From positions 4,402,001 to 4,466,000 of the forward strand of contig NC_015321.1 in the NCBI RefSeq assembly GCF_000194605.1: a stretch of DNA of 64,000 nt. Direction: 5' to 3'. Below the pieces are notes generated by a model. The model saw only the letters and a list, made by a program, of their open reading frames with translations. It did not search any database and was not told the origin of the DNA. This document shows, one piece after another, positions 8,344 through 59,401 of this stretch. The position numbers were made by a program, and so were the translations under genes. This DNA is from Fluviicola taffensis DSM 16823 (GTDB taxonomy: Bacteria; Bacteroidota; Bacteroidia; Flavobacteriales_D; Crocinitomicaceae). How positions within the stretch are numbered: position 1 is the stretch's first letter; each line of letters opens with the position of its first letter.

Positions 8344-8344
8344 C

Positions 8345-44312: not shown

Positions 44313-45554
44313 CTAAATGACTCCTGCTGCCACTGTTTGATTCGTGTTTTCATTGATTAGAATAAAAGCTCCCGTTTTCGGCAATTGTTTGAATAAGTCG
44401 AAACTAACTCCGTCTGCAGTTTTAATGGAAACCTTTGCCAATTCATTTAAGTGAAGACTCCCATCACTTCCAAGATCTTGAAAACTGTGAATGTCAATCT
44501 TCGAATGAATTTCTTTGATCATTGCTTTTGTGCGAAAACTATTTTGCTGCAATAAAAATTTTTGTCCTGAATTAAATGCAAAGCTATCCATCCAACAAAT
44601 CGTAGCATGCAATGACTTCTCGGTTTGAGGAAGTTCATTTCTAGGGACAATGGTATTCCCTCGACTGATGTCCAAATTATCCTCCAAATGCAAAACAACC
44701 GGTTGGTTTTTCACCGCAGTCTCTACTTCCTTCAAATTAGACTCTATTTTACTTATTCGTGTTTGTGCTCCAGAAGGTAAAATGGTCACCTCATCTCCTA
44801 CCTGAAAGTGTCCGCTCAAGACACTTCCCGCATAACCTCTGTAATCATGCAATGCTTCCGTTTGGGGACGAATGACAATCTGTACCTGAAAGCGTGATTT
44901 CTCTTTCAAATTTCCATCATCCATTTCTACTGTTTCCAAATACTCCAATAAAGGCAATCCCTTATACCAGCTCAGTTTTTCTGAACGATAAACCACATTA
45001 TCACCAGCTAAAGCGGAAGTTGGGATAAAATCGACCTGTTTCAAACCGATTAGTTCTGCAAATGCTTGATACTCGGAAACAATTTCATTGAAACGATCTT
45101 CACTGTAAGCCACCAAATCCATTTTATTGATACACAACAATACCTTTGGAATTCCAAGTGTTGCAGAGATAATGCTGTGCCGTTTCGTTTGATCCGTAAT
45201 GCCATTTCGTGCATCCACCAGAACAATTGCCAACTGCGCTGTTGAAGCTCCTGTGAACATGTTCCGCGTGTATTGTGCATGTCCAGGAGTATCTGCAATG
45301 ATAAACTTGCGTTTGTCCGTAGAAAAATACTTGTAAGCCACGTCGATTGTAATCCCTTGTTCTCGTTCTGCACGTAAACCATCTGTCAATAAAGCCAAAT
45401 CGATTGTAGTGTTATCACCAGTTGTTTTACTCTGACGAGTCAGTGTTTCTATAATATCAGTAGAAATTGATTCACTATCGTAAAGTAAGCGCCCGATTAA
45501 GGTACTCTTTCCATCGTCTACATTTCCTGCCGTAAAAAATCGTAATAAATCCAT
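44313..45554 (-). CDS. cysN: Sulfate adenylyltransferase subunit 1 (GTPase)
   Basis: CysN is the GTPase that drives ATP sulfurylase, making adenosine 5'-phosphosulfate (APS) from sulfate. The 413-residue protein is EF-Tu-like: P loop AGNVDDGKSTLIGRLL (about 9-24), switch II DTPGHAQYTRNM (about 88-99), NKMDL (about 143-147), then two beta-barrel domains. It has no fused APS kinase domain. It follows cysD on the same strand after 105 nt. Confidence 0.95.
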   Translation of the reverse strand: MDLLRFFTAGNVDDGKSTLIGRLLYDSESISTDIIETLTRQSKTTGDNTTIDLALLTDGLRAEREQGITIDVAYKYFSTDKRKFIIADTPGHAQYTRNMFTGASTAQLAIVLVDARNGITDQTKRHSIISATLGIPKVLLCINKMDLVAYSEDRFNEIVSEYQAFAELIGLKQVDFIPTSALAGDNVVYRSEKLSWYKGLPLLEYLETVEMDDGNLKEKSRFQVQIVIRPQTEALHDYRGYAGSVLSGHFQVGDEVTILPSGAQTRISKIESNLKEVETAVKNQPVVLHLEDNLDISRGNTIVPRNELPQTEKSLHATICWMDSFAFNSGQKFLLQQNSFRTKAMIKEIHSKIDIHSFQDLGSDGSLHLNELAKVSIKTADGVSFDLFKQLPKTGAFILINENTNQTVAAGVI

Positions 45555-45601
45555 TTTTTTTAAAATTATGTATTATCAATGTTGAATCCTCCCCCCTCAA
45601 T

Positions 45602-45616
45602 CCCCTTCCAAAGGGG
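45602..45616. repeat. Short C/G-rich hairpin between cysD and cysN
   Basis: CCCCTT pairs with AAGGGG around CCA within TCCCCTTCCAAAGGGGGA. It is preceded by a C-rich run. On the leftward transcript it could pause or process the cysD-cysN mRNA, but no U tract follows. Similar C-rich/G-rich words are common between Bacteroidota genes. Confidence 0.45.
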
Positions 45617-45659
45617 GAAGCTAGATCCTATTTCAAAATTGATAATTGCTAATTAACAC

Positions 45660-46559
45660 TTAAAAATACCCTCCTTTTTTTCTGTCTTCCATTGCTGCTT
45701 CTGAAACCCGATCGTCCATGCGAGTTGCTCCTCGTTCTGAGATCTTCGCATCTGAAATTTCAGCAATGATATCATCCACGGTGTAAGCTTCACTTTCAAC
45801 TGCAGCTGTGCATGTCATATCCCCAACCGTGCGATACCGAACTTTTTTAGTCACAATTTGATCTGTTCCATCCAAATTCAGAAATTCATTATTTGCCATC
45901 AGCTGACCATGTTCGGTTACCACGCATTCGCGCTCGTGTGTAAAATAAATTTTGGGCAATTGAATGTTTTCGCGTTTGATGTAATTCCATACATCCAATT
46001 CCGTCCAATTACTAATTGGGAACACACGTACGTTTTCACCTTTATCAATTTTACCATTGTAAATACTCCACAACTCAGGTCGTTGCAATTTGGGATCCCA
46101 TTGACCAAATTCATCTCTTACAGAAAACACACGCTCTTTTGCCCTTGCTTTTTCCTCATCTCTTCTTGCTCCGCCAATACAGGCATCAAACTCGAATTCC
46201 TCAATGACTTCAAGTAGAGTATGAGTCTGTAATGCATTTCTGCTTGGAAATTTTCCTTTGCCATCCTGCAATTTGTTTTTGGTAATGGTATCCCCCACAT
46301 TTCGAACAATTAATTGTTCTCCCAATTCTTTAGCTAATGTATCTCTGAAATCAAGCGCTTCCTGAAAATTATGTCCCGTGTCTACATGAACCAATGGAAA
46401 AGGAAACTTTCCAGGTCTGAATGCCTTCAATGCCAAATGCACCAGACAAATACTATCCTTTCCTCCTGAGAACAATAAAGCCGGTCGGTCAAATTGACCT
46501 GCCACTTCTCTCAGAATGTAAATGGCTTCCGCCTCTAATTCATCTAAATAATCTTTCAT
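45660..46559 (-). CDS. cysD: Sulfate adenylyltransferase subunit 2
   Basis: CysD is the adenylyl-transferring subunit of ATP sulfurylase. The 299-residue protein has the PP-loop LLFSGGKDSICLVHLALKAF (about 28-47), HVDTGHNFQEALDFRD, CIGGARRDEEKARAKER (about 131-147) and the C-terminal KKGGYF. Length is normal. It is in the leftward sulfur cluster, separated from cysH upstream by a 152-nt gap that contains a tandem repeat and a palindrome. Confidence 0.96.
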   Translation of the reverse strand: MKDYLDELEAEAIYILREVAGQFDRPALLFSGGKDSICLVHLALKAFRPGKFPFPLVHVDTGHNFQEALDFRDTLAKELGEQLIVRNVGDTITKNKLQDGKGKFPSRNALQTHTLLEVIEEFEFDACIGGARRDEEKARAKERVFSVRDEFGQWDPKLQRPELWSIYNGKIDKGENVRVFPISNWTELDVWNYIKRENIQLPKIYFTHERECVVTEHGQLMANNEFLNLDGTDQIVTKKVRYRTVGDMTCTAAVESEAYTVDDIIAEISDAKISERGATRMDDRVSEAAMEDRKKGGYF

Positions 46560-46560
46560 A

Positions 46561-46628
46561 TAATTCCTAATTCCTAATTCCTAATTCCTAATTCCTAATT
46601 CCTAATTCCTAATTCCTAATTCCTAATT
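46561..46628. repeat. Tandem repeat, 7-bp unit TAATTCC, about 9.7 copies
   Basis: A perfect 68-bp array of the heptamer TAATTCC starts 2 bp upstream of the cysD start codon. On the leftward mRNA the repeat (GGAATTA units) lies exactly where a ribosome would load, and GGA-containing units could act as weak ribosome-binding sequences. Copy number could vary by slippage. Confidence 0.95.
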
Positions 46629-46670
46629 AAAAAATATTCAATGTTTTAAAGTGATCATAAGTCAATCATT

Positions 46671-46710
46671 CGTAATTCGTATCCCGATAGCTATCGGGAC
46701 GTAATTCGTA
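46671..46710. repeat. 18-bp perfect palindrome flanked by 11-bp direct repeats
   Basis: TCCCGATAGCTATCGGGA (46682-46699) is its own reverse complement. CGTAATTCGTA occurs directly on each side (46671-46681 and 46700-46710). The right copy ends next to the cysH stop codon (46712-46714). The arrangement looks like a small insertion with a duplicated target, or an RNA-processing hairpin. Confidence 0.8.
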
Positions 46711-46711
46711 A

Positions 46712-47398
46712 TTAACTATGCAGTCCGCATTCTTTCTTTGAATTATCTTCCCACCACCATCTTCCGGCGCGAAATGATTCTCCTTCACGGATAGCGCGCG
46801 TACAGGGTTGACATCCCAAACTTATAAATCCTTTATCCTGCAAAACATTATATGGAATGTTGTATTGTTTGATGTACTCTTTCACTTCTTCCAAACTCCA
46901 ATTTGCCAATGGGTTTACCTTCACTATTCTCCGTTGCTCATCCCACTCGACCAATTCCAAACCAGCCCTGTTTTCAGAATGATCCGCACGCAGTCCGGTG
47001 ATCCATACGTCCACATCTTTCAAAGCCCGATTCAATGGTTCAACTTTCCGAATGAAACAACATTCTTTGCGGTTTTCCAGTGATTCATAAAAACTAAGCG
47101 GGCCTTTCTCTGTGAGTAGATTTTCTACAGCTTGTGACTGAGGAAAATAAACCTCCAGTTTCTTTTGGTATCGCTGACGAGTAGATTCGATCACACTGTA
47201 TGTTTCCGGAAACAAGCGTCCAGTATCCAATGTAAATACACGGATGGGTAACTCTTGTGAATAAATGGCATGAGTCAGTACTTGATCTTCCCAGCTCAAA
47301 CTAGAGGAAAAAGCTACTTTCACTCTTTCAATCGAAGCAATCCGGGACAAATAATCTTCCAGATTCGTATAAGCTATTGCCTTTATTTTTTCAATCAT
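46712..47398 (-). CDS. cysH: Phosphoadenylyl/adenylyl-sulfate reductase, APS-type
   Basis: CysH reduces activated sulfate to sulfite with thioredoxin. The 228-residue protein has the PP-loop region FSSSLSWEDQVL, the cluster-binding pairs CCFIRKVEPL and CQPC (four Cys, for a [4Fe-4S] cluster), RADHSENR and the catalytic C-terminal ECGLHS. The four cluster cysteines indicate use of APS rather than PAPS, consistent with the absence of an APS kinase gene here. It starts 3 nt after the siroheme/TSUP fusion gene. Confidence 0.94.
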   Translation of the reverse strand: MIEKIKAIAYTNLEDYLSRIASIERVKVAFSSSLSWEDQVLTHAIYSQELPIRVFTLDTGRLFPETYSVIESTRQRYQKKLEVYFPQSQAVENLLTEKGPLSFYESLENRKECCFIRKVEPLNRALKDVDVWITGLRADHSENRAGLELVEWDEQRRIVKVNPLANWSLEEVKEYIKQYNIPYNVLQDKGFISLGCQPCTRAIREGESFRAGRWWWEDNSKKECGLHS

Positions 47399-47401
47399 TT
47401 T

Positions 47402-48886
47402 TTAAAATATTAGCGTCAGAAAATTGCGTAAACTGACTATTACTACTACAATTCCAACAAACAACATCATTGCTTTAATATTCAACTTGGACGCCAGATA
47501 AGCAGCAATAGGCGCTGCACAAACTCCTCCTAAAACCAATCCGGCAATCGGTTGCCACACATTGGATGTACCGATGACTGTGAAAAAAGTAAAGGAACTA
47601 GCCAGAGACACGAAAAACTCAGCCAGATTCACCGATCCGACAATCATTCTCGGGTGCTTTCCACGAGCGATCAGGGTTGAAGAAACGACGGGGCCCCAGC
47701 CTCCACCGCCTATGGAATCTAAAAAACCTCCTAAAAGTCCCAGCCAACCTACTTTGGTCACTTTCTTTCGTGCTTGTTTCTTGCGAAGTACCTTGTATAT
47801 GATCAATCCTCCCAAAAACAAGGTGTAAGCACTTACGATCGGTTTGATGATCTCATTGTATGATTCAAATTCAGACAATACATACGCTCCTACAATCGCA
47901 CCTAAAACCCCAGGAATCAGGATCGATTTGAACAAACGGTTATTCACATTTCCGAAGCGCAAATGCATGATTCCGGAAACTCCGCTTGTAAATATTTCGG
48001 AAGCATGTACAGCCATACTTGAAACTGCCGGCGTAATCCCGTACGACAATAAAAAAGTAGTTGCACTAACTCCGTACGCCATTCCTAATGCTCCGTCGAT
48101 CATTTGAGCTACAAATCCGGCCAAAATGAAGTAAGCAAAATCAATGGTCAATGAATCAACCATTCCAGAAGCTGAATTCCAAATGCTTTCCAGTGGAATT
48201 AAGGTAAAGAGCAAATGTCCGGTGAGTAAAACTCCCACTATTCCACAGAAATAGGCCAACAATTTCCATGGAGAAAAGAAATACCACGGTCTTTTCGGAT
48301 TCACCAACAAACTTGCCGTTGCCTTGTTGAGTTTCTTTATCTTATCTGTAAAATCCCCTTTGAGATACTCCCGAAACTGATTCAGATACAACGCAGAATC
48401 ATCCAGTTCTTCAGGCAAATTTTCGTCAAACAATTCCTTGAGTCTTTTTGCCAAAGTGGGTGATTTTCCATTAGTGGAAATGCCGATTTTCACATTTCCC
48501 TTTTTAACGACTGATCCCAAATAAAAGTCACACAATTCCGGTTTGTCTGCTGCGTTGTACAAAATGCCGGCCTCATTACTGATTGTTTTCAAGGAAGCAG
48601 ATAATTCTAAATCATTCAGGGCAGTTATTACCAATTGCTTCCCTTTCACATCGTCTTCCTCAAAGGCCCTGTTTTCTAGATAGACCTGCTCGTGTCTTTC
48701 CGCAAAATCAATAAACGATTCGCTAAAATCCAGTGCTATAACAGATACCGTGGTATGCGGTGAGTTGGTCAACAACGCCTTGAGTTTTTCCAAAGCCACC
48801 GCCCCACCGCCAACCAGTAAAACTTGCAGTTCATTGGTTTTCAAGAATACTGGAAACAATTCGTTTTGCTCTGCTACTTCTCTCAT
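47402..48886 (-). CDS. Precorrin-2 dehydrogenase/ferrochelatase domain fused to TSUP transporter
   Basis: From ATG 48886 the product is 494 residues. Residues 1 to about 195 are a Met8/CysG-N siroheme synthase domain: NAD loop QVLLVGGGAVALEKLKALL (21-39), NAADKPELCDFYLGSVV and GISTNGKSPTLAKRLKEL. Residues about 200-494 form eight to nine membrane helices of a TauE/SafE (TSUP) permease, with the repeated GFVAQMIDGALGMAYG and GGFLDSIGGGGWGP loops. It thus combines the last steps of siroheme synthesis with a sulfite/sulfonate/sulfate-type transporter. The start codon overlaps the cobA stop. The in-frame TTG at 48898 is rejected. Confidence 0.9.
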   Translation of the reverse strand: MREVAEQNELFPVFLKTNELQVLLVGGGAVALEKLKALLTNSPHTTVSVIALDFSESFIDFAERHEQVYLENRAFEEDDVKGKQLVITALNDLELSASLKTISNEAGILYNAADKPELCDFYLGSVVKKGNVKIGISTNGKSPTLAKRLKELFDENLPEELDDSALYLNQFREYLKGDFTDKIKKLNKATASLLVNPKRPWYFFSPWKLLAYFCGIVGVLLTGHLLFTLIPLESIWNSASGMVDSLTIDFAYFILAGFVAQMIDGALGMAYGVSATTFLLSYGITPAVSSMAVHASEIFTSGVSGIMHLRFGNVNNRLFKSILIPGVLGAIVGAYVLSEFESYNEIIKPIVSAYTLFLGGLIIYKVLRKKQARKKVTKVGWLGLLGGFLDSIGGGGWGPVVSSTLIARGKHPRMIVGSVNLAEFFVSLASSFTFFTVIGTSNVWQPIAGLVLGGVCAAPIAAYLASKLNIKAMMLFVGIVVVIVSLRNFLTLIF

Positions 48887-49659
48887 CAGATACAACAACT
48901 ACTACTAGATTCCGAATAAACTTTCGCTTGATAATTACTCGCCAAGGAAACAACTTCACCAATAACAATCACACCAGGACCTGAAGCGGAAGCTTGCTCA
49001 TTTTGAGCGACAATCGTATCAATTGTTCCAAAGACTTCCTTCTGCGTTTCCAATGATCCGTTGTAAATAATCGAAACCGGTATTTCTCCTTTGTTTGCTA
49101 ATTGATACAACTCCACAATTTTCGGAAGCTGAGCAATTCCCATCAGAATGACGATTGTTGCATTGAGTTCTCTTGCTTTTTCTAACTCTGGATTCAACGA
49201 TCCATCCGCTAATGTAGCTGAGAGAACCAAAAACGAATTACTGATTCCTCTGTGTGTTACCGGGATTTCAGCCAAAGCCGGAACTGAAATAGAGCTGGAG
49301 ATTCCCGGTATTACTTCCGTCGGAATCTGATGTTCTCTTGCAAATAGTATTTCCTCCATTCCTCTACCGAAAACAAAGGAATCCCCGCCCTTTAAGCGAA
49401 CCACATGTCCGAATTCAATTGCAGAATCCACCATCAATTGATTGATTTGCTCCTGTTCATAGGCTTTAAAACCTAAACGCTTGCCAACAAAAATCTTTTT
49501 CGCAGTTGGAGCATAAGTCAGTAATTCTTCATTCACCAAAGCATCATAAAGCACCACCTTTGCTTTTTTCAAGCGATTCAGTCCTTTTACCGAAATCAGT
49601 TCAACATCACCGGGTCCTGCCCCGACCAATGAAATAGTTGGATTTTCCCTAGTACTCAT
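48886..49659 (-). CDS. cobA: Uroporphyrinogen-III C-methyltransferase
   Basis: This enzyme dimethylates uroporphyrinogen III to precorrin-2, the siroheme precursor. The 257-residue protein shows LVGAGPGDVELISVKGL (about 11-27), VVLYDALVNEELL, VRLKGGDSFVFGRGMEE (about 86-102), VIPGISSSISVPALAEIPVTHRG and TIVILMGIAQLP. It overlaps the sulfite reductase gene by 11 nt and the fusion gene by 1 nt. Its product feeds the Met8 domain encoded next, and siroheme then goes to the sulfite reductase. Confidence 0.95.
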   Translation of the reverse strand: MSTRENPTISLVGAGPGDVELISVKGLNRLKKAKVVLYDALVNEELLTYAPTAKKIFVGKRLGFKAYEQEQINQLMVDSAIEFGHVVRLKGGDSFVFGRGMEEILFAREHQIPTEVIPGISSSISVPALAEIPVTHRGISNSFLVLSATLADGSLNPELEKARELNATIVILMGIAQLPKIVELYQLANKGEIPVSIIYNGSLETQKEVFGTIDTIVAQNEQASASGPGVIVIGEVVSLASNYQAKVYSESSSSCCI

Positions 49660-51760
49660 TTTTCACTTTCAATTTCGTTATCAATTCTTCTATTTCATTC
49701 AAATAGGCCTTCGCAAAGACTTTCGAAGCTTTTTCCTTGTTAATTCTCAATACAAAATCGCTAAACAAATTCGAGTCGGAATAACCGAAATCTGCTCCCA
49801 AATGCGTATCGAAATCTGTCAGGATTCCATGTTGCGAATTACATCTGATTCCTTTTTCAATCAACTTTGCTTTTGCCGAATGGACCGCTGCTGCATACCC
49901 GTAATAGATTGAATCAGCGTAACGATTCTCTATCCATGCTTCCTGAGCAGAAAACAATTTTTCTTCTGCATCAAAAAACAAGGTGCCAACCAGGTCAATG
50001 ATTACTCCGGCACATTCTCCTACTCCGATTGCCGTTGCGAAGCGTTCATTTTGTCCCCAATCCAAGTATTCTTCCAATTCCACCTGATTCAAATCCGTTA
50101 AGGGTTTCAGCAGGTTATAGAAATAGGTATTTCCCTGTTTGTCGTAATAGGCATTGAAGGCTTCGTCATTCTCATGAAATTGGAGGTAATCATCTAAAAT
50201 TGACTGAACAACTTTCAAGATGCGCTTGCTGGGTACTTTGATCACTTTCTCAGCAATTCTTCCGGTTCCAGCTCCCGTTTGTCCTCCTCCCAATAATACT
50301 TGTAAAGCTGGAAGTGTTCCTTCCTTTGTTTTAATGGAACTGCCGTGGAAACCGATGTGAGCCAAACCATGCTGACCACATGAATTCATACATCCGCTTA
50401 TCTTGATTCTGATGCCCGTTTCTTCAATGAGTTTTGGATAATTGGTACGAATAAATGATTCCAGTTCCAAAGCGACATTCGTACTGTTTGAAATTCCCAG
50501 ATTACAGGTATCTGTTCCAGGACAAGCTGTGATATCTGTCAAACCACCATATCCTGATCCGATCAGATTCAACTGTTCCAATTGCAAATAAATGGGTGAT
50601 AACTGTTCGGGTTTCACTCCTCTTATCTGGATATTCTGATTAATCGTAAAACGCAATTCAGGAAGATTCAAACTATCCAACAAATAGGCTAAAGAACGCG
50701 CCTGATCGGTATAAAAATCGCCCAAGGGAACTTTCACAAAAACAGCCAGATAACCTGGTTGTTTTTGTAGAAATACATTCGTTCGAATCCATTGGTTGTA
50801 AACCAAATCAGATGTATACAAATCGTCTCGTTCAACAGCTGTCTGTTCTTCGTATTCAAATTCAGTTAACGGTTTAACCTGATCTCTATTCAAATCGAAT
50901 TGAACGGCTTCTTTTTCTTTACCTACTAATTCTAAAAAAGTTTCCAAACCGATTTTAGAAATCAGGTATTTCATTCGGGCCTTGTTACGACTGTTCCGTT
51001 CGCCATAGCGGTCGAAAATGCGAATGGAAGCTTCAATAAACGGAATGATTTCTGATTCGGAAAGAAATTCATACGCAACATGAGCTAGGAAAGGTTGAGC
51101 CCCTAATCCACCACCTATCAGAACTTTGAAACCTTTTACTTGCAATTTACCTTGAAGTTTGATTCGAGGAATAAAACCAAAATCATGAATGAAAGTAAAT
51201 GCATCATCCTGATCATCGGAACTAAAGGCGATTTTGATCTTGCGCCCCAATTCCTGTCCGAAAGGTTTCCGCAAAAAGTATTGAAATACCTGTTCGGCAT
51301 AAGGAGTCACGTCAAATAATTCATTCGGATTGATTCCCGCATTGTCGCTTGCAGTGACATTTCGAACTGTATTTCCGCAAGCTTCACGCAAAGTCACATC
51401 GTCTTTTTCCAAATCGGACCACAATTGAGGAGTTCTATCCAATGAGACATGATGAATCTGGATGTCTTGTCGGGTTGTAATATGCAATCTTCCCGTACTG
51501 TATTCATCGCTAACCTGTGCGATTCTGCGCAATTGATTGGAACTCAATTTCCCATAAGGAAGTTTGATCCGAATCATTTGCACTCCTAACTGTCGTTGTC
51601 CGTAAACACCACGAGCCAATCTCAGTGAGCGAAATTTATCATCTGGGATTTTTCCATCCTTGAATGCGGCAATTTTATCTCCCAATTCAAGAATATCCTT
51701 TTCCACCCGTAGTTTTTTCGCTTCCACCTGAAGCTCATACTCGGTTCTAAAACTTTCCAT
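49649..51760 (-). CDS. Siroheme sulfite reductase with C-terminal HEPN domain
   Basis: The 703-residue protein has two nitrite/sulfite reductase ferredoxin-like halves with siroheme-[4Fe-4S] ligands Cys413/Cys419 (ACPGTDTC) and Cys457/Cys461 (GCMNSCGQHG), and TGRLHITTRQDIQIHHV near residue 100. It should reduce sulfite to sulfide with six electrons. About 150 residues follow the reductase (from about 545), with a helical HEPN-like segment (ALWIENRYADS-like; DSIYYGYAAAVHSAKAKLIE). This tail is absent from proteobacterial CysI. It starts 2 nt after the AKR-like gene. A nitrite reductase role is possible but the operon points to sulfite. Confidence 0.9.
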   Translation of the reverse strand: MESFRTEYELQVEAKKLRVEKDILELGDKIAAFKDGKIPDDKFRSLRLARGVYGQRQLGVQMIRIKLPYGKLSSNQLRRIAQVSDEYSTGRLHITTRQDIQIHHVSLDRTPQLWSDLEKDDVTLREACGNTVRNVTASDNAGINPNELFDVTPYAEQVFQYFLRKPFGQELGRKIKIAFSSDDQDDAFTFIHDFGFIPRIKLQGKLQVKGFKVLIGGGLGAQPFLAHVAYEFLSESEIIPFIEASIRIFDRYGERNSRNKARMKYLISKIGLETFLELVGKEKEAVQFDLNRDQVKPLTEFEYEEQTAVERDDLYTSDLVYNQWIRTNVFLQKQPGYLAVFVKVPLGDFYTDQARSLAYLLDSLNLPELRFTINQNIQIRGVKPEQLSPIYLQLEQLNLIGSGYGGLTDITACPGTDTCNLGISNSTNVALELESFIRTNYPKLIEETGIRIKISGCMNSCGQHGLAHIGFHGSSIKTKEGTLPALQVLLGGGQTGAGTGRIAEKVIKVPSKRILKVVQSILDDYLQFHENDEAFNAYYDKQGNTYFYNLLKPLTDLNQVELEEYLDWGQNERFATAIGVGECAGVIIDLVGTLFFDAEEKLFSAQEAWIENRYADSIYYGYAAAVHSAKAKLIEKGIRCNSQHGILTDFDTHLGADFGYSDSNLFSDFVLRINKEKASKVFAKAYLNEIEELITKLKVKNEY

Positions 51761-51762
51761 GA

Positions 51763-52635
51763 TTACTTTGTGGCATTGTAAAGAAAGTACCAGTCTTCCT
51801 GAGTCAATTCAAATGTATGCGCCGTTGCCGCATTTTGAATACGACGCTTTTCCTTACTACCAATAATTGGCAAGGCGCCTAATTTATTCAACCAAGCAAC
51901 GGCTACCTGTTCCACATTCGCTTCGTATTTCTTTCCTATTTCAATCAATGCCAAACGCAATTTGACTGCCTGAGCATCTTCTCCCAATAAGATCCTACCA
52001 TCAGCCAAAGGAGAAAAGGCTAAGGCACGACTGTGTTGCTCTCGAATAAAATCAAATCTTCCATCGTGCAGGGCTTCAGATTGAAGGAGATTTAACTCCA
52101 AATGATTGGTTATAATGGGTTGTGAAAGAGATGCAGAAAGCAGACGTTGTTGAAACACATTGAAGTTCGAAACACCTATGTATGAGATTTTTCCACTACG
52201 CTGCAATTTCAATAATGCCGAAGCAGTTTGTTCAAAATTGGAAAGAAAATCAAAATTCTCCAAGATGAGAATATCAATTTTATCTCGTTTCAAGCGACTC
52301 AAGGATTGTTCTACACTTTTTGTAATGTGTTGCGGGCTTAAATCATAGTAAATTCCACTACCATAAGCTCCAGAGTATTCTCGTTGTCCAACTTTTGTGG
52401 AAAGAATCAATTCTGATTGGTTAATCGCTCCTGATTCAATTAATTTACCGAATTGAGTTTCCAATTGTCCTCCACTCGAACTTAAATCATAAGTGTCGAT
52501 TCCCAATTCCCGCGTAAACAAAACAATTTCTTTGAATTTCTTTGAATCCGCCAAATCCTCTTCTGTCCATCTCCAGAAACCGTAAACCGCAGCTGAAACT
52601 CTTGGACCATATTCGTTGATATATACTTTTTTCAT
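51763..52635 (-). CDS. Aldo/keto reductase-like protein lacking catalytic Tyr and His
   Basis: The 290-residue protein has the AKR TIM-barrel layout: GIDTYDLSSSGGQLETQFG (45-63), STKVGQREY (79-87), SLSRLKRDKIDILILENFDF (111-130), SYIGVSNFNVFQQRLL and VAVAWLNKLGALPIIGSKEKRRI. Asp47 and Lys81 match catalytic positions, but the Tyr of the D-x-A-x-x-Y-G motif is replaced by Ser (52-54), and the usual L-H-R-P-D His segment reads LILENFD. It is the first enzyme-like gene after the attenuator and is tightly coupled to the sulfite reductase gene. A non-redox or regulatory role is possible. Confidence 0.82.
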   Translation of the reverse strand: MKKVYINEYGPRVSAAVYGFWRWTEEDLADSKKFKEIVLFTRELGIDTYDLSSSGGQLETQFGKLIESGAINQSELILSTKVGQREYSGAYGSGIYYDLSPQHITKSVEQSLSRLKRDKIDILILENFDFLSNFEQTASALLKLQRSGKISYIGVSNFNVFQQRLLSASLSQPIITNHLELNLLQSEALHDGRFDFIREQHSRALAFSPLADGRILLGEDAQAVKLRLALIEIGKKYEANVEQVAVAWLNKLGALPIIGSKEKRRIQNAATAHTFELTQEDWYFLYNATK

Positions 52636-52658
52636 TTTTTTCTTTACTTAATGACAAT

Positions 52659-52692
52659 AAAAAACCCTTCTTTCGACAAGCGAAAGAAGGGT
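52659..52692 (-). terminator. Conditional terminator (attenuator) before the sulfur cluster
   Basis: Read leftwards, ACCCTTCTTTCG (92 to 81) pairs perfectly over 12 bp with CGAAAGAAGGGT (75 to 64 of 526xx), with a 5-nt loop, followed by a U tract. It lies between the leader reading frame and the ATG of the AKR-like gene at 52635, in the correct orientation to stop the transcript before every enzyme gene of the cluster. A terminator in that place only makes sense if it is regulated. Confidence 0.88.
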
Positions 52693-52715
52693 CATAACTC
52701 ACTGTTAATTTATAA

Positions 52716-52787
52716 CTATTCCTTCCGCATTTCCTTTTGGGACATACAGCACATCTGCATTTGAAGCATGAAGTTCTTTTGAATCAT
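52716..52787 (-). CDS. Met/Cys-rich leader peptide (23 codons)
   Basis: Read leftwards from the ATG at 52787, a frame of 23 codons ends in TAG at 52716. It begins MIQKNF, then the core MLQMQMCCM, and ends SQKEMRKE. Six of 23 residues are Met and two adjacent ones are Cys, an extreme composition for sulfur amino acids. The stop is 23 nt before the terminator stem. This fits a leader whose translation senses charged Cys- or Met-tRNA. The GAAGG of codons 22-23 can pair with CCTTC of the terminator's 5' arm, a possible but weak antiterminator. Promoter, leader and terminator are in the right order. Confidence 0.75.
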   Translation of the reverse strand: MIQKNFMLQMQMCCMSQKEMRKE

Positions 52788-52808
52788 CTCTTTTTTAATT
52801 TGATAGTG

Positions 52809-52839
52809 CAAAGTAAAGGGCTAGATTTAAAATGGACAA
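52809..52839 (-). promoter_or_regulatory. Promoter of the sulfur cluster (TTG-N20-TTACTTTG)
   Basis: Read leftwards, a -33 TTG (52839-52837) is 20 nt before TTACTTTG (52816-52809), a 7 of 8 match to TAnnTTTG. Transcription would start near 52804, about 17 nt before the leader peptide ATG. Confidence 0.65.
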
Positions 52840-52884
52840 GCAAAAGTGAATTTATTTTCCATTACTCCTATCGGACAAGTAGGA
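52834..52884 (-). promoter_or_regulatory. Possible Rrf2 operator region
   Basis: Read leftwards there are two copies of CTTGTCC, at 52882-ish within TTCCTACTTGTCCGATAGGA and at 52840-52834, the second overlapping the -33 TTG. The first copy is inside a dyad with TCCTA/TAGGA arms (52880-52884 and 52866-52870). The location between the Rrf2 gene and the operon promoter suits an Rrf2 operator; binding is inferred from position only. Confidence 0.35.
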
Positions 52885-52903
52885 ATTAAAATCAAAAAAC
52901 ACC

Positions 52904-53359
52904 CTATTTACGTTTGCTTTCAGATTTTCTCATTAGTTTTTTTTCACGCAAAATTAAATCTGCCAAACTTGTCTTAGACAAAATATGAATGCTCGCTTCC
53001 CGTACTTCAAGCATCACATCATGCAAGCCACAGAGTTCTTCATGCGGGCATTCGATGCATTCTTCGTAAAAATTTAAGCTCACACATGGCAACAACGCGA
53101 TTGGTCCACCAGTTACGCGAATGATGCTACTCAAGACAATTTCATCTGGATGTTTTACCAGAAAATACCCGCCATTCGCTCCCATCTTACTCCCAACCAT
53201 ACCACCATTTCGCAGTTGTAAAAGTATCGCCTCTAGAAATTTCCGTGGGATATTTTCTTCTTCCGCAATCGTTGCAATGGACAAATGTTTTTTATCGCGA
53301 TATACTTTCGCTAAACACTTCAGGGCCTGAATGGCATATTTGGATCTCTTTGGTATCAT
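52904..53359 (-). CDS. Rrf2 family transcriptional regulator
   Basis: The 151-residue protein has the Rrf2 winged helix: SKYAIQALKCLAKVYRDKKH (6-25), SIATIAEEENIPRKFLEAIL (27-46), then LRNGGMVGSKMGANGGYFL. Cys92, Cys101, Cys104 and Cys110 (PCVSLNFYEECIECPHEELC) resemble the cluster-binding cysteines of IscR-type members. It could sense an iron-sulfur cluster or a cysteine-synthesis signal. It lies directly upstream of the attenuator on the same strand and is a good candidate for control of the sulfur cluster, as CymR-type Rrf2 proteins do in Firmicutes. Confidence 0.9.
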   Translation of the reverse strand: MIPKRSKYAIQALKCLAKVYRDKKHLSIATIAEEENIPRKFLEAILLQLRNGGMVGSKMGANGGYFLVKHPDEIVLSSIIRVTGGPIALLPCVSLNFYEECIECPHEELCGLHDVMLEVREASIHILSKTSLADLILREKKLMRKSESKRK

Positions 53360-53363
53360 AAAA

Positions 53364-53371
53364 CAAATATA
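53364..53371 (-). promoter_or_regulatory. Promoter -7 element TATATTTG of the Rrf2 gene
   Basis: Read leftwards it is an exact TAnnTTTG match with four bases before the ATG at 53359, predicting a leaderless mRNA. Confidence 0.5.
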
Positions 53372-53374
53372 CTA

Positions 53375-54034
53375 CTAATTTAATAGGAGTTCGTAAATTC
53401 CGGAAACCTGAATAATATGAATATTCCTAATCGCACCACTCTCATTATTTTGATAGATATATCCTGCTCCTAATTTCCATTTCTTACAAACTTTTTGTTG
53501 GATTGAAATCCCACCTCTCCATTCCCATGGCTTAACATTTCCGCAGATATAAAACCATTCACTGAAATAAACCAATTTTGTATTGAATTCGGAAATCAGC
53601 GAGTGTGAAAAAAGCACCTGAAATCGCATTCGATTCTGATCTTTAGTTGATCCATCAAAAAAGCGAAATTCATTCCTGAGTCTTAGTTGAAACTGTTTGT
53701 TTTTTAATGGGAAAAGCTGAGTAACTTGTAGAAAGGGTCTTATTTCCGTTTCTAATCCTCTAGCCTCTTTCCTTTCATGAATGAAGCTTGCTATTCCTCC
53801 TCCAAAACCAGTTCTTTTTGAATTGGCTTGATAACTCAATGTATATCGAAAGAGACTTTGTCTATGATTGTTGAAGAATGAGTCTTGTCTTCTGTGACCT
53901 AATTCCACCACATGGAGATACCTTTTAAAATCCAAACGGAACTGTGATAGCAACCAAGTGTTTGTTGTGTATTTATCCTGACCAAAACAAACAGCACAAT
54001 AAAGGAATAAATTCCCCATGAGTATCATTTTCAT
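53375..54034 (-). CDS. DUF2490-like outer-membrane protein
   Basis: The 219-residue protein has a signal peptide (1-18, ending CFGQ) and a pattern of amphipathic strands: TNTWLLSQFRLDFKRYLHVV, RRQDSFFNNHRQSLFRYTLS, QLFPLKNKQFQLRLRNEFRF, WRGGISIQQKVCKKWKLGAG. This matches DUF2490 proteins, which look like small outer-membrane barrels. The function is unknown. Its stop region contains the Rrf2 promoter, so it ends about 15 nt from the Rrf2 start. Confidence 0.7.
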   Translation of the reverse strand: MKMILMGNLFLYCAVCFGQDKYTTNTWLLSQFRLDFKRYLHVVELGHRRQDSFFNNHRQSLFRYTLSYQANSKRTGFGGGIASFIHERKEARGLETEIRPFLQVTQLFPLKNKQFQLRLRNEFRFFDGSTKDQNRMRFQVLFSHSLISEFNTKLVYFSEWFYICGNVKPWEWRGGISIQQKVCKKWKLGAGYIYQNNESGAIRNIHIIQVSGIYELLLN

Positions 54035-54098
54035 GGGACAAATTTAATAAGAGATTTTATTAATCTACTTATCCTATGGAATAAAAAGATTTAATAAA

Positions 54099-54884
54099 TT
54101 ATTCCACAAGCTCTCTTGTAACAAGTTGATATTTCCCTTTTACAATTGGTCTAGGAAAAGCATTGAAATGCCACCATTCGGTAGGAATATTCGAAAATCC
54201 TTGACTTTTCAACGCTCTTCTGAGCAATTTGCGGTTATCTATTTGAGCTTGACTAATTTCTCCTGTTGCTAAAAATTCAGATTCCAAAGATGGATAAGCA
54301 ATTTTGCGAATATCATCATACTCCGCCCCCATGTCTAATGGCTTCTTATTCGACATACAAATTGTTAGATCTACTGCCGCTCCGTAATTGTGAACACTTC
54401 CATTTTTCGGATTACTTACAAACTTTCCTCTTTCGAAAGCTGGAATGGTATCCAATGCATTCCACATTTCCCATTGAACACTCAAAGGTCTCAATCCATC
54501 ATAAACCAATAAATGGTAATCCGAGTTTCTTCCTGTCAAGTATTCTTGTGATTTTGCCAATCTTCTTGCAACATCTATCTGAACATAAACCTTTTGCATC
54601 GTATCATACAAAACGCGGTGCATGAAATTATCTTCGGTCGCATACTTTAATTCCCACCAAATATTTTTATTGAAATGATCAACGCATACAAGTGTATCTT
54701 CTTTGTGAAGAATGTATTCCTCTTTAGAAACATCCAGTTTCCGTGCATTTTTTTCATCGGACAAAGCATCTGAATCAGATTTATTTGATCCAAAATCAAC
54801 CTTTAGAGATTGTTCTGACTTCACTGATTCCGAGCAAGCGCTAATCAATAAACCACTTAGAAGTAAAAATTCCATTCTTTTCAT
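54099..54884 (-). CDS. M15 family D-Ala-D-Ala dipeptidase-like lipoprotein (VanX type)
   Basis: From ATG 54884 the product is about 261 residues with a lipoprotein signal (LLLSGLLISACSES). The catalytic domain shows the VanX/M15D zinc motifs: SVHNYGAAVDLTI (His and Asp ligands) and PTEWWHFNAF (catalytic Glu and His ligand), plus LLVYDGLRPLSVQWEMW. It should cleave D-alanyl-D-alanine dipeptide in the periplasm, for recycling of cell-wall material. No vancomycin-resistance genes are nearby, so a resistance role is unlikely. Confidence 0.88.
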   Translation of the reverse strand: MKRMEFLLLSGLLISACSESVKSEQSLKVDFGSNKSDSDALSDEKNARKLDVSKEEYILHKEDTLVCVDHFNKNIWWELKYATEDNFMHRVLYDTMQKVYVQIDVARRLAKSQEYLTGRNSDYHLLVYDGLRPLSVQWEMWNALDTIPAFERGKFVSNPKNGSVHNYGAAVDLTICMSNKKPLDMGAEYDDIRKIAYPSLESEFLATGEISQAQIDNRKLLRRALKSQGFSNIPTEWWHFNAFPRPIVKGKYQLVTRELVE

Positions 54885-54927
54885 CCTGTAAAAATTAGGA
54901 TTTTTACGCACATGTCAACATTTACTG

Positions 54928-54935
54928 TACATTTG
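54928..54935 (+). promoter_or_regulatory. Promoter -7 element TACATTTG
   Basis: Exact TAnnTTTG match 24 nt before the ATG at 54960 of the aminotransferase gene. Confidence 0.5.
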
Positions 54936-54959
54936 TTGTCCCCAAAATAATATTAAGAA

Positions 54960-56159
54960 ATGCCAAAAATTGCTCAGAAAGCCATTGACATGCCTGCTTC
55001 ACCAATTCGTAAATTGGTTCCTTATGCTGAAAAAGCTAAAAAAGCAGGAAAAACTGTTTACCACTTAAACATTGGTCAGCCGGATATTGAGACTCCGAAA
55101 GTAGCTTTAGATGCTATTCGCAACTTTGATCATAAGGTTATTGAATACAGTCACTCAGCGGGTTTTGAATCTTACAGAACAAAATTAGCTGAAACATATC
55201 GTTTAGGAGGTCTTCCAGTAAATACAGAAGATATCATTATCACAACTGGTGGATCTGAAGCATTGATTTTTGGATTCATGACCACTTGTAATCCAGGTGA
55301 CGAAGTGATTATTCCTGAGCCCTTTTACGCAAACTACAATGGATTTGCAGTAACCGCTGGACTAACCGTTATTCCTGTTACATCAACTATTGAATCAGGA
55401 TTTGCTTTGCCCCCAGTATCTGAAATTGAAGCAAAAATCACTTCAAAAACAAAAGCAATCGTTATTTGTAATCCTGGAAATCCAACCGGATATTTATACA
55501 GTAAAGAAGAATTAGAGCAATTACGTGATATCGTTAAGAAACATGATTTATTCTTGTTTGCTGATGAAGTTTACCGCGAGTTTTGCTACGATGGAGCTCA
55601 ACCTTTCTCTGTTTTGAACTTAGAGGGCATTGAGAATAACGTTATTATGATTGATTCTGTTTCCAAGCGTTATTCGATGTGTGGAGCACGAATCGGAGCA
55701 TTGGTTTCTAAAAACCAAGAAGTAATGGCTGCAGCCTTGAAATTTGGACAAGCGAGACTTTCTCCTCCAACAGTAGATCAGATTGCTTCTGAAGCTGCTT
55801 TAAACACTCCGCAATCTTATTTTGATGACGTAGTTGCTGAATATGTTCAACGTCGAAACATTATGGTTGATGGATTGAATAACATTCCAGGGGTATTTTG
55901 TCCAAAACCAAGCGGTGCTTTTTATTGCGTTGCAAAATTCCCGGTGGATAATGCAGAAAAATTCTGTCAGTGGTTATTAGAAGATTTCGAATTTGAAGGT
56001 CAGACGGTAATGATGGCTCCAGCAAATGGCTTTTACTCCACACCTGGTGCAGGAATGCAAGAAGCACGTATTGCTTACGTATTAAATCAAGATTCATTGA
56101 AAAAAGCAGTGATTTGTCTAGAGAAGGCATTGGAAGTTTATCCTGGAACAATACGCTAA
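54960..56159 (+). CDS. PLP-dependent class I aminotransferase (aspartate aminotransferase-like)
   Basis: The 399-residue cytoplasmic enzyme has fold-type I aminotransferase motifs: YHLNIGQPDIETP (about 36-48), TTGGSEALIFGFM (about 97-109), CNPGNPTGYLYS (about 172-183), DEVYREFCYDG and the PLP-binding Lys236 (DSVSKRYSMCGARIGAL). It probably transfers the amino group of aspartate or another amino acid to 2-oxoglutarate; exact specificity is not visible. The CorC-type gene starts immediately after its stop. Confidence 0.92.
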   Translation: MPKIAQKAIDMPASPIRKLVPYAEKAKKAGKTVYHLNIGQPDIETPKVALDAIRNFDHKVIEYSHSAGFESYRTKLAETYRLGGLPVNTEDIIITTGGSEALIFGFMTTCNPGDEVIIPEPFYANYNGFAVTAGLTVIPVTSTIESGFALPPVSEIEAKITSKTKAIVICNPGNPTGYLYSKEELEQLRDIVKKHDLFLFADEVYREFCYDGAQPFSVLNLEGIENNVIMIDSVSKRYSMCGARIGALVSKNQEVMAAALKFGQARLSPPTVDQIASEAALNTPQSYFDDVVAEYVQRRNIMVDGLNNIPGVFCPKPSGAFYCVAKFPVDNAEKFCQWLLEDFEFEGQTVMMAPANGFYSTPGAGMQEARIAYVLNQDSLKKAVICLEKALEVYPGTIR

Positions 56160-57440
56160 ATGGAACTACTCATAATCCTCTTTTTAATTATCCTGAATGG
56201 TGTTTTTTCCATGGCAGAAATTGCTACGGTATCCGCTCGAAAATCTAAGTTGGACGCCGCCGCAAAAAGAGGTGACAAAAGTGCAAAACTGGTTATTGAA
56301 ACCTTGAATGCACCAAATAAATTCCTTTCAACAGTCCAAATTGGAATTACGTTAATTGGAATTTTAACGGGTATTTTCTCAGGAGAAAAAATGACAACCG
56401 ACATTGAAGGCTTTTATCAAGGCTTTGTTTTGACAAAGCAGTACGCTCATTTTTTAGCAGTCACTTCAGTTGTTGTAATCATTACTTTCTTTTCATTGGT
56501 CTTGGGTGAATTGGTTCCGAAACGCATTGGTTTAACGAATCCCGAAGGGATTGCAAAAACAATGGCTCGACCAATGCTCATTATTTCAAAAATCACAGCT
56601 CCATTTGTTTGGTTATTGACAATTACTTCGGATTTACTACTCAAAGTATTGCGAATCAAGCAATCTTCGGATGGAAAAGTAACCGAGGAAGAAATTAAGG
56701 CCATCATTCAAGAAGGTACAGACGGAGGTGAAGTTCAAGAAATTGAACAAGATATTGTGGAACGCGTTTTTCATTTAGGTGATCGCAACATTAGTTCTTT
56801 AATGACGCATCGAAATGATGTAATTTTCATCGATATTCACGATACCAAAGAGGAAGTTCGCGAACAAGTAGAAAAAGAAATGCACTCTGTGTATCCGATT
56901 TTTGACGAAGAGCGCGAACAAGTTTTAGGTGTTGTATTGCTAAAAGATTTATTTAGAACAATCAACCACGATGATTTTGAGTTGAAAAAACTCATGTTGA
57001 AACCTCAATTTTTGATGGAAAACATTTCTGCTTATGAAGCTTTAGTCCATTTTAAAGAGTCTAAGACACATTATGGGATCATAACAGATGAATTTGGTCA
57101 AACACAAGGAATTGTAACATTAAACGACTTATTACAAGCACTTGTAGGTGATTTTAATGACTTCTACGCAGAAGAATTTGAATTTATTCAACGTGAAGAT
57201 GGTTCTTGGTTAATTGATGGTCAATATCCAATTGCCGAATTCTTTCGTCAGTTTGGTTTGGAAGACAATTCTTCTGAACTGAATTTCACAACAATTGGTG
57301 GATTGGTCTTGAATGAATCGAGAAGTGTTCCTTCTACTGGTCAGAAATTTCATTGGTTAAACTTTGAGATTGAGGTAGTAGACATGGATGGAGCGCGGAT
57401 TGATAAGCTGATCATTAAAGAGATTGAGGCCGAGGATTAA
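56160..57440 (+). CDS. CNNM/CorC-type hemolysin family membrane protein
   Basis: The 426-residue protein has a DUF21 (CNNM) transmembrane domain (1 to about 190; NGVFSMAEIATVSARKSKLD, LGELVPKRIGLTNPE), a CBS pair (about 205-330; MTHRNDVIFIDI, FGQTQGIVTLNDLLQ) and a CorC/HlyC domain (about 340-425; WLIDGQYPIAEFFRQF). Family members are linked to magnesium or sodium efflux; the hemolysin label is historical. It starts with no gap after the aminotransferase stop. Confidence 0.93.
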   Translation: MELLIILFLIILNGVFSMAEIATVSARKSKLDAAAKRGDKSAKLVIETLNAPNKFLSTVQIGITLIGILTGIFSGEKMTTDIEGFYQGFVLTKQYAHFLAVTSVVVIITFFSLVLGELVPKRIGLTNPEGIAKTMARPMLIISKITAPFVWLLTITSDLLLKVLRIKQSSDGKVTEEEIKAIIQEGTDGGEVQEIEQDIVERVFHLGDRNISSLMTHRNDVIFIDIHDTKEEVREQVEKEMHSVYPIFDEEREQVLGVVLLKDLFRTINHDDFELKKLMLKPQFLMENISAYEALVHFKESKTHYGIITDEFGQTQGIVTLNDLLQALVGDFNDFYAEEFEFIQREDGSWLIDGQYPIAEFFRQFGLEDNSSELNFTTIGGLVLNESRSVPSTGQKFHWLNFEIEVVDMDGARIDKLIIKEIEAED

Positions 57441-57537
57441 ACTCCTTTTAAGATAAAATTGTACGTTTTCTCGTTTCATTCAAGAGCGCATCCATTTGTT
57501 TTTCAAATCACAAAAGTTTATTTGTTGTTTTGTATTC

Positions 57538-57545
57538 TATCTTTA
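57538..57545 (+). promoter_or_regulatory. Promoter-like TATCTTTA
   Basis: A 7 of 8 match to TAnnTTTG that ends 4 nt before the histidine kinase ATG at 57550. The intervening GGAG also resembles a ribosome-binding site, which is rare in this genome. Confidence 0.35.
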
Positions 57546-57549
57546 GGAG

Positions 57550-59364
57550 ATGAAAATCATTCTGTTGCTTCCTATTCTATTCGTATCATTTGCCTATCAT
57601 GCGCAAGTATACGAACTTCCTGCAACGATGAAAAATGCAAAATACGAAGATGTTCTTTCGTATGTCCAAGAGCAAATAAATACTGAAAAAAAATGGACAA
57701 AGAAGAAAGTTTCGTTGAGTTTATTCCTGAGTAAATGGTATACCAGAGATTGGGAATTCGACCAGGCAAATAATATTATCAAGAGCATTCCACGTTCAAA
57801 AATACGTTCAAATAAATTGGAGGGGGATTACTTTCTAATCAAAGCCACCTTGTTTCAAGGCGAGCAGAAAAAAGCAGCCTATTTTTACCAACGTTCTATC
57901 CATCAGTTTGAGAATGAGCGCAACCGGAAAGGAATCTTAAATGCAAATATAGCCTATGCTGAATTTCGAAGAGGAAATGGCCAGTATGAACTTGGATTGG
58001 CAATATTGGAACAAGTTGAACAAGCATTAAAAAAAAATCCATCAGACTACCTGATGATGAAAGTTGCCAACAGACGCGCAGCTATCCTGAATGAAAAAAC
58101 ACTTCTCAACGAATCCATTGAAAGTTCCAGGTTGTGTATTCAATTGGCAAAAAAAACAAACGACATCTATTACGAGGCAATTTCTTATAAAGAACTGGGA
58201 GCTTGCTACAGAAGCATGTCGTATAACAACCATGCCATGTTGGACTCGAGTAGACTCAACTATCAACTCTCGGAAAAGCGTTTTAGAGATATTGGCTTGA
58301 TCAAAGAGGCAATACAGGCCAAAGAAGTTTGGATAACTACCGATATCAATAACTCAGATCATAAGTCAGTAATCAATGGGTATAAGGAAATCGAAAATGA
58401 AATAAAAAGCAACCGATTAAACTATCCCCTCAAAGATATTTATCTAAAAATATCTTCGATTTATTTAGCTATTGAAGATTACGAGAATGCATTTAAATAT
58501 AAAGAGTTGTATTCTCAAGAAAATGAACGATCCATCTATGAAAAAAAGGAAAGTGAACTAAAAAAAGTGAAGGGAGAATTTGTTGCTCTTATATTGCAAT
58601 CTGAAAATGACAAAATAAAACAGGACAATAAACTCAAGCAATCTGCCTTAAAAGAAGAACAAAAAAGAAGCAGCAGATACATCATCGTAGTGATCGTGTT
58701 AGTTATTCTATTAACGACTGTCATTGTGCTTTTGTCCCGAAACCGAAAGTTGACCAATCATTTAACGGTACAAAACAAAGAAAAAGATTTTTTGATTCAG
58801 GAAGTCCATCACCGAGTAAAAAACAACTTGCAATTTGTGAAATCAATCCTCCTTCTTCAATCAACGAAACAAGGACAAAAAGACGAACAAATACTGAATG
58901 ATATTTCCAGAAGAATTGATGCCATGTCATTAGTTCATGAAATGCTTTATACGAACAATGAATCCAATCAAATTTTCGTGAAAAATTATTTGGAAAAACT
59001 CATTCAACATTCCGATGAATTATTTTCGAGTAAGAAAAAGGTAAAAATCAATTTAGAAGTTGCAGATATTCAATTGCCGATCGAAAAAATGGTTTCGATC
59101 GGAATTATTTGTTCTGAGTTACTAACCAACTCCATTAAACATGCGTTTCATGAAGTTGAAAATCCGGAATTTACCATTCAATTAAAGATTGAGCAAAATT
59201 CCTGTGTGTTTAGCGTGAATGACAATGGCAGCATCAAAAACCAAGAAAAACAATCAGAAGGTTTGGGGATGCAATTAATCGATATTTTCTCCAGGCAGTT
59301 AAAAGGTGACTATGTACTCACGAAAAAAAATGGGTATTATTACAATCTGAAATTCAACATCTGA
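57550..59364 (+). CDS. TPR-containing HisKA_2-type sensor histidine kinase
   Basis: The 604-residue protein has a signal peptide (1-19), TPR-like repeats in the periplasm (about 75-350), a coiled-coil segment, a membrane helix at about 375-395 (YIIVVIVLVILLTTVIVLL), the HisKA_2 phosphoacceptor segment HHRVKNN (420-426) and a HATPase domain (about 500-604; CSELLTNSIKHAF, VNDNGS, GLGMQLI). It pairs with the LytTR regulator encoded 37 nt downstream. Such pairs are typical Bacteroidota signalling modules; the signal is unknown. Confidence 0.9.
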   Translation: MKIILLLPILFVSFAYHAQVYELPATMKNAKYEDVLSYVQEQINTEKKWTKKKVSLSLFLSKWYTRDWEFDQANNIIKSIPRSKIRSNKLEGDYFLIKATLFQGEQKKAAYFYQRSIHQFENERNRKGILNANIAYAEFRRGNGQYELGLAILEQVEQALKKNPSDYLMMKVANRRAAILNEKTLLNESIESSRLCIQLAKKTNDIYYEAISYKELGACYRSMSYNNHAMLDSSRLNYQLSEKRFRDIGLIKEAIQAKEVWITTDINNSDHKSVINGYKEIENEIKSNRLNYPLKDIYLKISSIYLAIEDYENAFKYKELYSQENERSIYEKKESELKKVKGEFVALILQSENDKIKQDNKLKQSALKEEQKRSSRYIIVVIVLVILLTTVIVLLSRNRKLTNHLTVQNKEKDFLIQEVHHRVKNNLQFVKSILLLQSTKQGQKDEQILNDISRRIDAMSLVHEMLYTNNESNQIFVKNYLEKLIQHSDELFSSKKKVKINLEVADIQLPIEKMVSIGIICSELLTNSIKHAFHEVENPEFTIQLKIEQNSCVFSVNDNGSIKNQEKQSEGLGMQLIDIFSRQLKGDYVLTKKNGYYYNLKFNI

Positions 59365-59401
59365 ACTCCATTTTAGGGTCAAACTCCCGTTAAACAGGTC
59401 C

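Follow-up and report, generated by a model that had tools for sequence, protein, structure and literature searches.

The leader preceding the sulfate assimilation operon of Fluviicola taffensis DSM 16823 is very probably a ribosome-mediated transcription attenuator that responds to cysteine, and probably also to methionine. The parts of the device, their conservation, the mutually exclusive pairing, the covariation, the codon enrichment, and the operon specificity across Bacteroidia were shown by computation; the transcription start, translation, ribosome stalling, and regulated read-through are inferred. The window, meaning the whole stretch of DNA analyzed, comprises 64,000 nucleotides of a complete genome of 4,633,577 bases, and the coordinates of the leader locus are given in its numbering.

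The minus-strand order at the locus is rrf2, leader, aldo/keto reductase (AKR), sulfite reductase (HEPN), uroporphyrinogen methyltransferase, siroheme synthase-TauE fusion, cysH, cysD, and cysN. The rrf2 gene (52904-53359) ends upstream of the leader on the same strand. The AKR (PF00248; 51763..52635) is the first structural gene, and the genes from sulfite reductase to cysN occupy 44313..51760; co-transcription of this operon is inferred from orientation and spacing. AKR orthologues, 52-99% identical, directly follow a leader-terminator unit in relatives and in other genera. The sulfite reductase is a NIR_SIR protein (49649-51760, minus strand) with a C-terminal HEPN domain (PF05168, E 3.5e-6), which is unexpected for such an enzyme, and a siroheme synthase N-terminal domain is fused in a single frame with a TauE/SafE sulfite exporter domain (47402-48898, minus strand).

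The leader peptide gene has 23 codons (MIQKNFMLQMQMCCMSQKEMRKE; 52787-52719, minus strand), starting with ATG at 52787 and ending with the stop TAG at 52718-52716. The peptide contains six Met, the start included, and one Cys-Cys pair, with Met12 and Met15 flanking Cys13 and Cys14; the putative sensor codons TGC TGT ATG (Cys13 Cys14 Met15) are located at 52743..52751 (minus strand). The frame is followed by an intrinsic terminator (52659..52692, minus strand; ACCCTTCTTTCG-CTTGT-CGAAAGAAGGGT) with a 12-bp stem that counts the closing A-U, a 5-nt loop, CTTGT, and a U6 run; the T tract extends to 52659 and ends 23 nt before the AKR start at 52635. Upstream of the frame, a promoter-like sequence near the Bacteroidota -33/-7 type was found at 52809..52839 (minus strand), with TTG at 52839-52837, a 20-nt spacer, and TTACTTTG at 52816-52809. 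The flavobacterial -7 consensus is TAnnTTTG (PMC9723704), and the TTG and a (T/A)nnTTTG box are retained among Fluviicola relatives. Assignment of this sequence as the leader promoter is inferred from sequence, and the start site is unmapped.

Nascent-RNA folds of the window leader contain an antiterminator that excludes the terminator. Its 5' strand (52710..52728, minus strand) consists of GCGGAAGGA (52728-52720) and GTTATAA (52716-52710) and overlaps the last codons and the stop of the leader frame. Its 3' strand (52680..52697, minus strand) consists of TTATGAC (52697-52691) and TTCTTTCGC (52688-52680) and overlaps the 5' arm of the terminator. The pairs formed are GCGGAAGGA:TTCTTTCGC and GTTATAA:TTATGAC, and the leader segment pairing with the terminator arm is GCGGAAGG. 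When a ribosome was modeled at Cys13 or Cys14, the nascent RNA formed the antiterminator, and when it was modeled at Met20 or the stop codon, the antiterminator could not form; ribosome placement was modeled with a roughly 30-nt footprint only, without ribosome data. Once the RNA was complete, the terminator was more stable than the alternative at every modeled ribosome position, so antitermination would have to be kinetic, as it is in the classic systems. The leader fold was more stable than shuffled sequences (z -3.8; 0/200 as stable).

These results bear on a first-pass annotation made without database searches, which had placed here a promoter (TTG-N20-TTACTTTG), a 23-codon frame with six Met and a Cys-Cys pair, and a perfect 12-bp terminator with a U tract ahead of the sulfate cluster. 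All of these held and were present where it had put them, the composition of the frame by direct reading of the minus strand. A GAAGG assigned to codons 22-23 was slightly misplaced, as the element spans codons 21-23. The suggested pairing of GAAGG with CCTTC also held, with GGAAGG:CCTTC forming one segment of a more extended antiterminator whose strands covary across lineages, and the RNA folding that it had proposed as a check was positive, the mutually exclusive antiterminator using the 5' arm of the terminator.

The same intergenic region was reached in 11 Fluviicola genomes by searching relatives with the peptide and the family with Rrf2. The frame and the terminator were present before the AKR, at the same place, in all 11 Fluviicola genomes with an adjacent Rrf2 orthologue, a conservation that excludes chance as the origin of the frame and meets the check on relatives named in the first-pass annotation. 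The CC pair is the best conserved part of these leaders: 10 of the 11 carry CC or CCC, and one (L025) has a single Cys (Cys-Ser-Trp). The peptides read MIQ(K/R)NFMLQMQMCCM..., MIKKNFMRQMPMQLCCM..., MNKKFFHKAMCCCM..., and once MNTHNRHNTMCSWMM. A six-base difference in their first part corresponds to two codons, and a four-base insertion after CC in L023 shifts the C-terminal end of the leader. The Cys codons vary between TGC (19) and TGT (42) in 19 leaders. Synonymous changes are only weakly in excess in the frame (17 of 77 codon differences, with 10.6 expected; P 0.02), and the pairs compared are not independent. Compensatory changes were found in the terminator, where four stem pairs are altered on both sides in 10 sequences and 92% of cells are paired compared to <=64% when the stem is slid. 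For the antiterminator, the Fluviicola alignment has 2-3 pairs changed on both sides versus <=1 in slid controls, and the upper helices are not retained in every species.

A model of the Fluviicola leaders found no second copy in the genome of the window, only three weaker matches without a Cys frame. Early weak peptide matches (L005, L010-L016) were discarded as chance matches in unrelated sequence. One record, L049 (CP034120.1), carries a Fluviicola leader under the label Glaciecola amylolytica, a gammaproteobacterial genus name; it falls in the genus of the window by genome search, and the record looks mislabeled.

More distant leaders were found by an AKR scan of named genomes and by covariance-model searches into another Bacteroidia order. 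AKR-sulfite reductase operons located in this way have leaders in front of them, among them MKANTSNSIFFSHQIAMCCCMRRCC and MKNTVLNINFTNKHMMCCWMLRCC, that contain CC or CCC; CGGAAGG and then a GCCCCTCCGT... terminator come after the leader. In L084, the second Cys pair is replaced by RLY and CCC is retained, which suggests that sensing relies on the first Cys run. The RCC-type alignment has 94% of antiterminator cells paired, against <=50% when slid. The RCC-type covariance model matches the Fluviicola leaders only weakly (E 0.41 for the window); position and the CGGAAG element suggest, without proving it, that the two types share an ancestor. A phylum-wide DNA pattern with an RCC-stop-CGGAAG core gave only chance matches inside or near unrelated genes, and four weak model matches in other genomes (L071-L074) were ordinary terminators.

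Across lineages, the tail of the leader and the 5' arm of the terminator are matched to each other. When leaders were folded without the 3' arm of the terminator, the tail paired with the 5' arm in 19/19 cases, and the Cys codons lay about 24-33 nt upstream of a CGG(A/G)AG element in nearly all 19, although the antiterminator z-scores of individual leaders were modest (mean -1.7). Each leader tail was then paired in silico with its own terminator arm and with all other arms. Own pairing was better than permuted pairing for 60 leaders (z -9.8, 0/20,000 permutations) and for 16 mutually dissimilar arms (z -5.4, 0/20,000 permutations), indicating that leader tail and terminator arm evolve together. 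Examples of such tail and arm pairs are GCGGAAG with CTTCCGC, CGGGAG with CTCCCG, and GAGGCC with GGCCTC.

The survey covered 94 loci around sulfite reductase genes from Flavobacteriales and Bacteroidia. The frames counted were short, began with ATG, and had their end roughly 10-60 nt ahead of a terminator; they were classed as near when that terminator was <=400 nt from the sulfite reductase (SIR) or AKR gene. A CC leader and terminator directly before one of these genes was present at 47 of the 94 loci, in 17 of 27 families. CC occurred in 60/86 near frames versus 38/982 others, and MM, the second most enriched of 20 amino-acid doublets, in 31/86 versus 23/982. These two were by far the most enriched, with other raised doublets far weaker (NN 14/86 versus 46/982, p 1.4e-4; TT p 2e-3). 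Near CC leaders consist of 13.9% Cys and 12.1% Met, versus 3.1% and 2.4%, respectively; the Cys value results partly from choosing the leaders for CC, which is not so for Met, and CC-holding frames elsewhere have 4.5% Met. The loci are related and the p-values, which ignore shared ancestry, are only indicative. Half of the surveyed loci had no CC leader under the strict rule, which missed a few leaders (L095, L115, L162, L169). Outside the core, the peptides vary (CC, CxC, CCCC, CCCCC), as do their position and length, and this free variation together with the spread over families makes a single inherited accident unlikely. The first-pass annotation had put forward a candidate attenuator sensing Met and Cys at this locus and had proposed a search for such leaders and hairpins across Flavobacteriales. 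That search was positive and was extended across Bacteroidia, so the local device becomes a class-wide one, and the sensing is refined, with Cys as the constant signal and Met as an additional, strongly enriched one. Its reading of the leader as a ribosome-mediated attenuator was supported by all computable checks, with the transcription start, stalling, and regulated read-through inferred.

Two complete Cys/Met leader-terminator units in series were found upstream of SIR/AKR at 13 loci, before the same operon in each case (L094, L100, L110, L113, L114, L118, L119, L122, L125, L138, L151, L155, and L167). In L114, for instance, MNNNFTYTLSTINRPMMCCMMCI comes first and MTTFNFQLLTFNLLMCMCCMMYLRMRSATTMQCCKS second, and both units have a terminator of their own. 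Related arrangements were observed near other genes. Short frames in L147 and L170 close with seven consecutive Cys codons (NNCCCCCCC, NPCCCCCCC); a weak hairpin and cysH come immediately after them. In L095, tandem Cys leaders (MCCLMCIEMYAKGKII; MNTTYQMCCCLMAMCCAHIMELYYPN) shortly before 6368 precede a small membrane protein gene, itself ahead of cysD-cysN-SIR on the same strand. In L115 (minus strand, 7900-8730 in reverse-complement coordinates), tandem Cys leaders precede a peroxiredoxin-like gene upstream of sulfite reductase. At three loci of one family (L101, L102, and L103), the leaders have C3-C5 runs but hardly any additional Met (MVLIPNACFVACCCCCPTPPSGRQSAVS), which suggests a version that reads Cys alone.

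In the proposed mechanism, RNA polymerase would start near 52802 and transcribe the leader frame, which a ribosome would translate. With charged Cys-tRNA, and probably Met-tRNA too, in plentiful supply, the ribosome would reach the stop codon and cover GCGGAAGGAATAG..., the terminator would form, and transcription would end before the AKR/sulfite reductase operon. With Cys (or Met) in short supply, the ribosome would stall at the Cys13-Cys14 (or Met) codons, the free leader tail would pair with the 5' arm of the terminator, and the polymerase would read through.

The adjoining Rrf2 regulator is likely to add control of the operon at the promoter level, which is again an inference. An inverted repeat upstream of the promoter, TCCTA-N9-TAGGA (TCCTACTTGTCCGATAGGA; 52866..52884, minus strand), is a candidate Rrf2 operator. 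The repeat occurs at the same place in the Fluviicola relatives L018-L026, and in several genera varied forms of it follow orthologous rrf2 genes that stand ahead of sulfate genes (several of L027-L046). It probably constitutes a second control layer; binding is inferred from sequence, with no binding data.

Among the alternative explanations, the one that survives best keeps the same attenuator but has it sense cysteine only, the Met codons being passengers, for example, where ATG overlaps other constraints. In its favor, Cys is constant, the CC pair is the best conserved element in Fluviicola, and leaders with C4-C5 runs and few extra Met exist (L101-L103). Against it, MM ranks second among the enriched doublets by a wide margin (31/86 versus 23/982), with Met raised to 12.1% of residues from 2.4%. 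Sulfide from sulfate assimilation feeds the synthesis of both Cys and Met, which also speaks against a Cys-only sensor. The balance of these points tilts against the Cys-only version, without ruling it out.

It is unlikely that the nascent leader chain itself is sensed, as an arrest peptide or through a thiol- or metal-binding CC motif, rather than uncharged tRNA. The motif M-C-C-(C/W)-M does recur between distant leaders, but the peptides differ freely outside the core, which fits codon content and not a fixed arrest sequence. Still less plausible is that the terminator marks the 3' end of the rrf2 transcript and acts as a constitutive brake, with the frame a chance occurrence or an unrelated small gene and no conditional control. 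Since rrf2 ends upstream on the same strand, its transcript could also stop here; however, the promoter-like sequence sits between rrf2 and the terminator, conservation covers the frame with its Cys codons as well as the antiterminator, and loci with a gene other than rrf2 upstream show this layout too. Control of the terminator by a ligand-binding riboswitch (e.g., SAM type) or a T-box, which is often found before sulfur genes in other bacteria, can be practically dismissed, as Rfam scans of the window and relatives gave no family match at or near the leader, SAM riboswitch and T-box covariance models had no match up to E = 1 in 45000-60000 or in relatives, and the leader is short, with the frame, antiterminator, and terminator as its conserved elements.

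Ribosome-mediated attenuation at this leader would provide a concrete mechanism for the control of sulfate assimilation in Bacteroidia, recurring in at least 17 families; no description of how sulfate assimilation into cysteine and methionine is controlled in Bacteroidia was found in the literature searched. It would extend amino-acid attenuation to Cys and Met in a phylum largely without Shine-Dalgarno-led initiation, and would imply that the ribosome there trails the polymerase closely enough to control termination. It would also give a reporter of sulfur amino acid starvation that is simple to read. A bolder reading, which we favor by a narrow margin, is that class-wide dual Cys/Met attenuators, often in tandem pairs, together with Rrf2 at the promoter are a principal control of sulfate assimilation in Bacteroidia. 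If true, this would be an undescribed RNA switch that has been remodeled repeatedly and responds to both sulfur amino acids simultaneously. The architecture of the tandem units is unusual and lends itself to direct testing, and such arrays could act as two-input gates or as gates with a steeper response.

Several known systems resemble parts of this arrangement. The Rrf2 protein encoded beside the operon has CymR, the Rrf2-family regulator of cysteine metabolism in Firmicutes, as its best equivalog-type match, but the score (69.6) is far under the model cut-off of 195, and this control would act at the promoter, separately from the attenuator. In the same phylum, a Flavobacterium psychrophilum transcriptome paper (PMC9723704) reports strong indications that leader peptides attenuate amino acid biosynthesis operons, with no cysteine or sulfate assimilation example in its main text. 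A Cys/Met attenuator was not described in the open-access literature searched, and the first-pass statement that none was known in Bacteroidota held within that scope; papers behind a subscription, Lopatovskaya 2010 (cited in PMC4833913) above all, were outside it, as were supplements, and absence is unproven. The poly-Cys leader ORFs of Mycobacterium are likewise Cys-rich frames before cysteine or sulfur genes. In its title, Canestrari 2020 (cited in PMC13236596) calls them cysteine-responsive, their control is described as translation attenuation (PMC13236596), and no terminator hairpins were found in the mycobacterial cys operon leaders (Seliverstov 2005, PMC1262725). The Bacteroidia leaders share with them the Cys run before a cysteine-pathway operon but not the terminator-less translational mode, since every one of the Fluviicola leaders has a terminator; they differ further by the covarying antiterminator and high Met. 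The closest likeness is to the trp/his-type attenuators of Proteobacteria and Actinobacteria, in which a short frame carries the regulated amino acid in runs, antiterminator and terminator are alternative structures, and the stop codon is placed so that the terminating ribosome masks the antiterminator. The Bacteroidia leaders match these features in having a frame enriched in codons of the pathway products, a terminator between the frame and the first structural gene, an exclusive antiterminator that includes the 5' arm of the terminator, and, by modeling of the window leader only, opposite outcomes for a stalled ribosome and one at the stop codon. They differ by the Cys and Met codons, the sulfate assimilation operon, and the frequent tandem units. 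By analogy, the Bacteroidia leaders would work like trp/his attenuators and would extend this kind of control to Cys/Met codons with intrinsic terminators before a sulfate operon.
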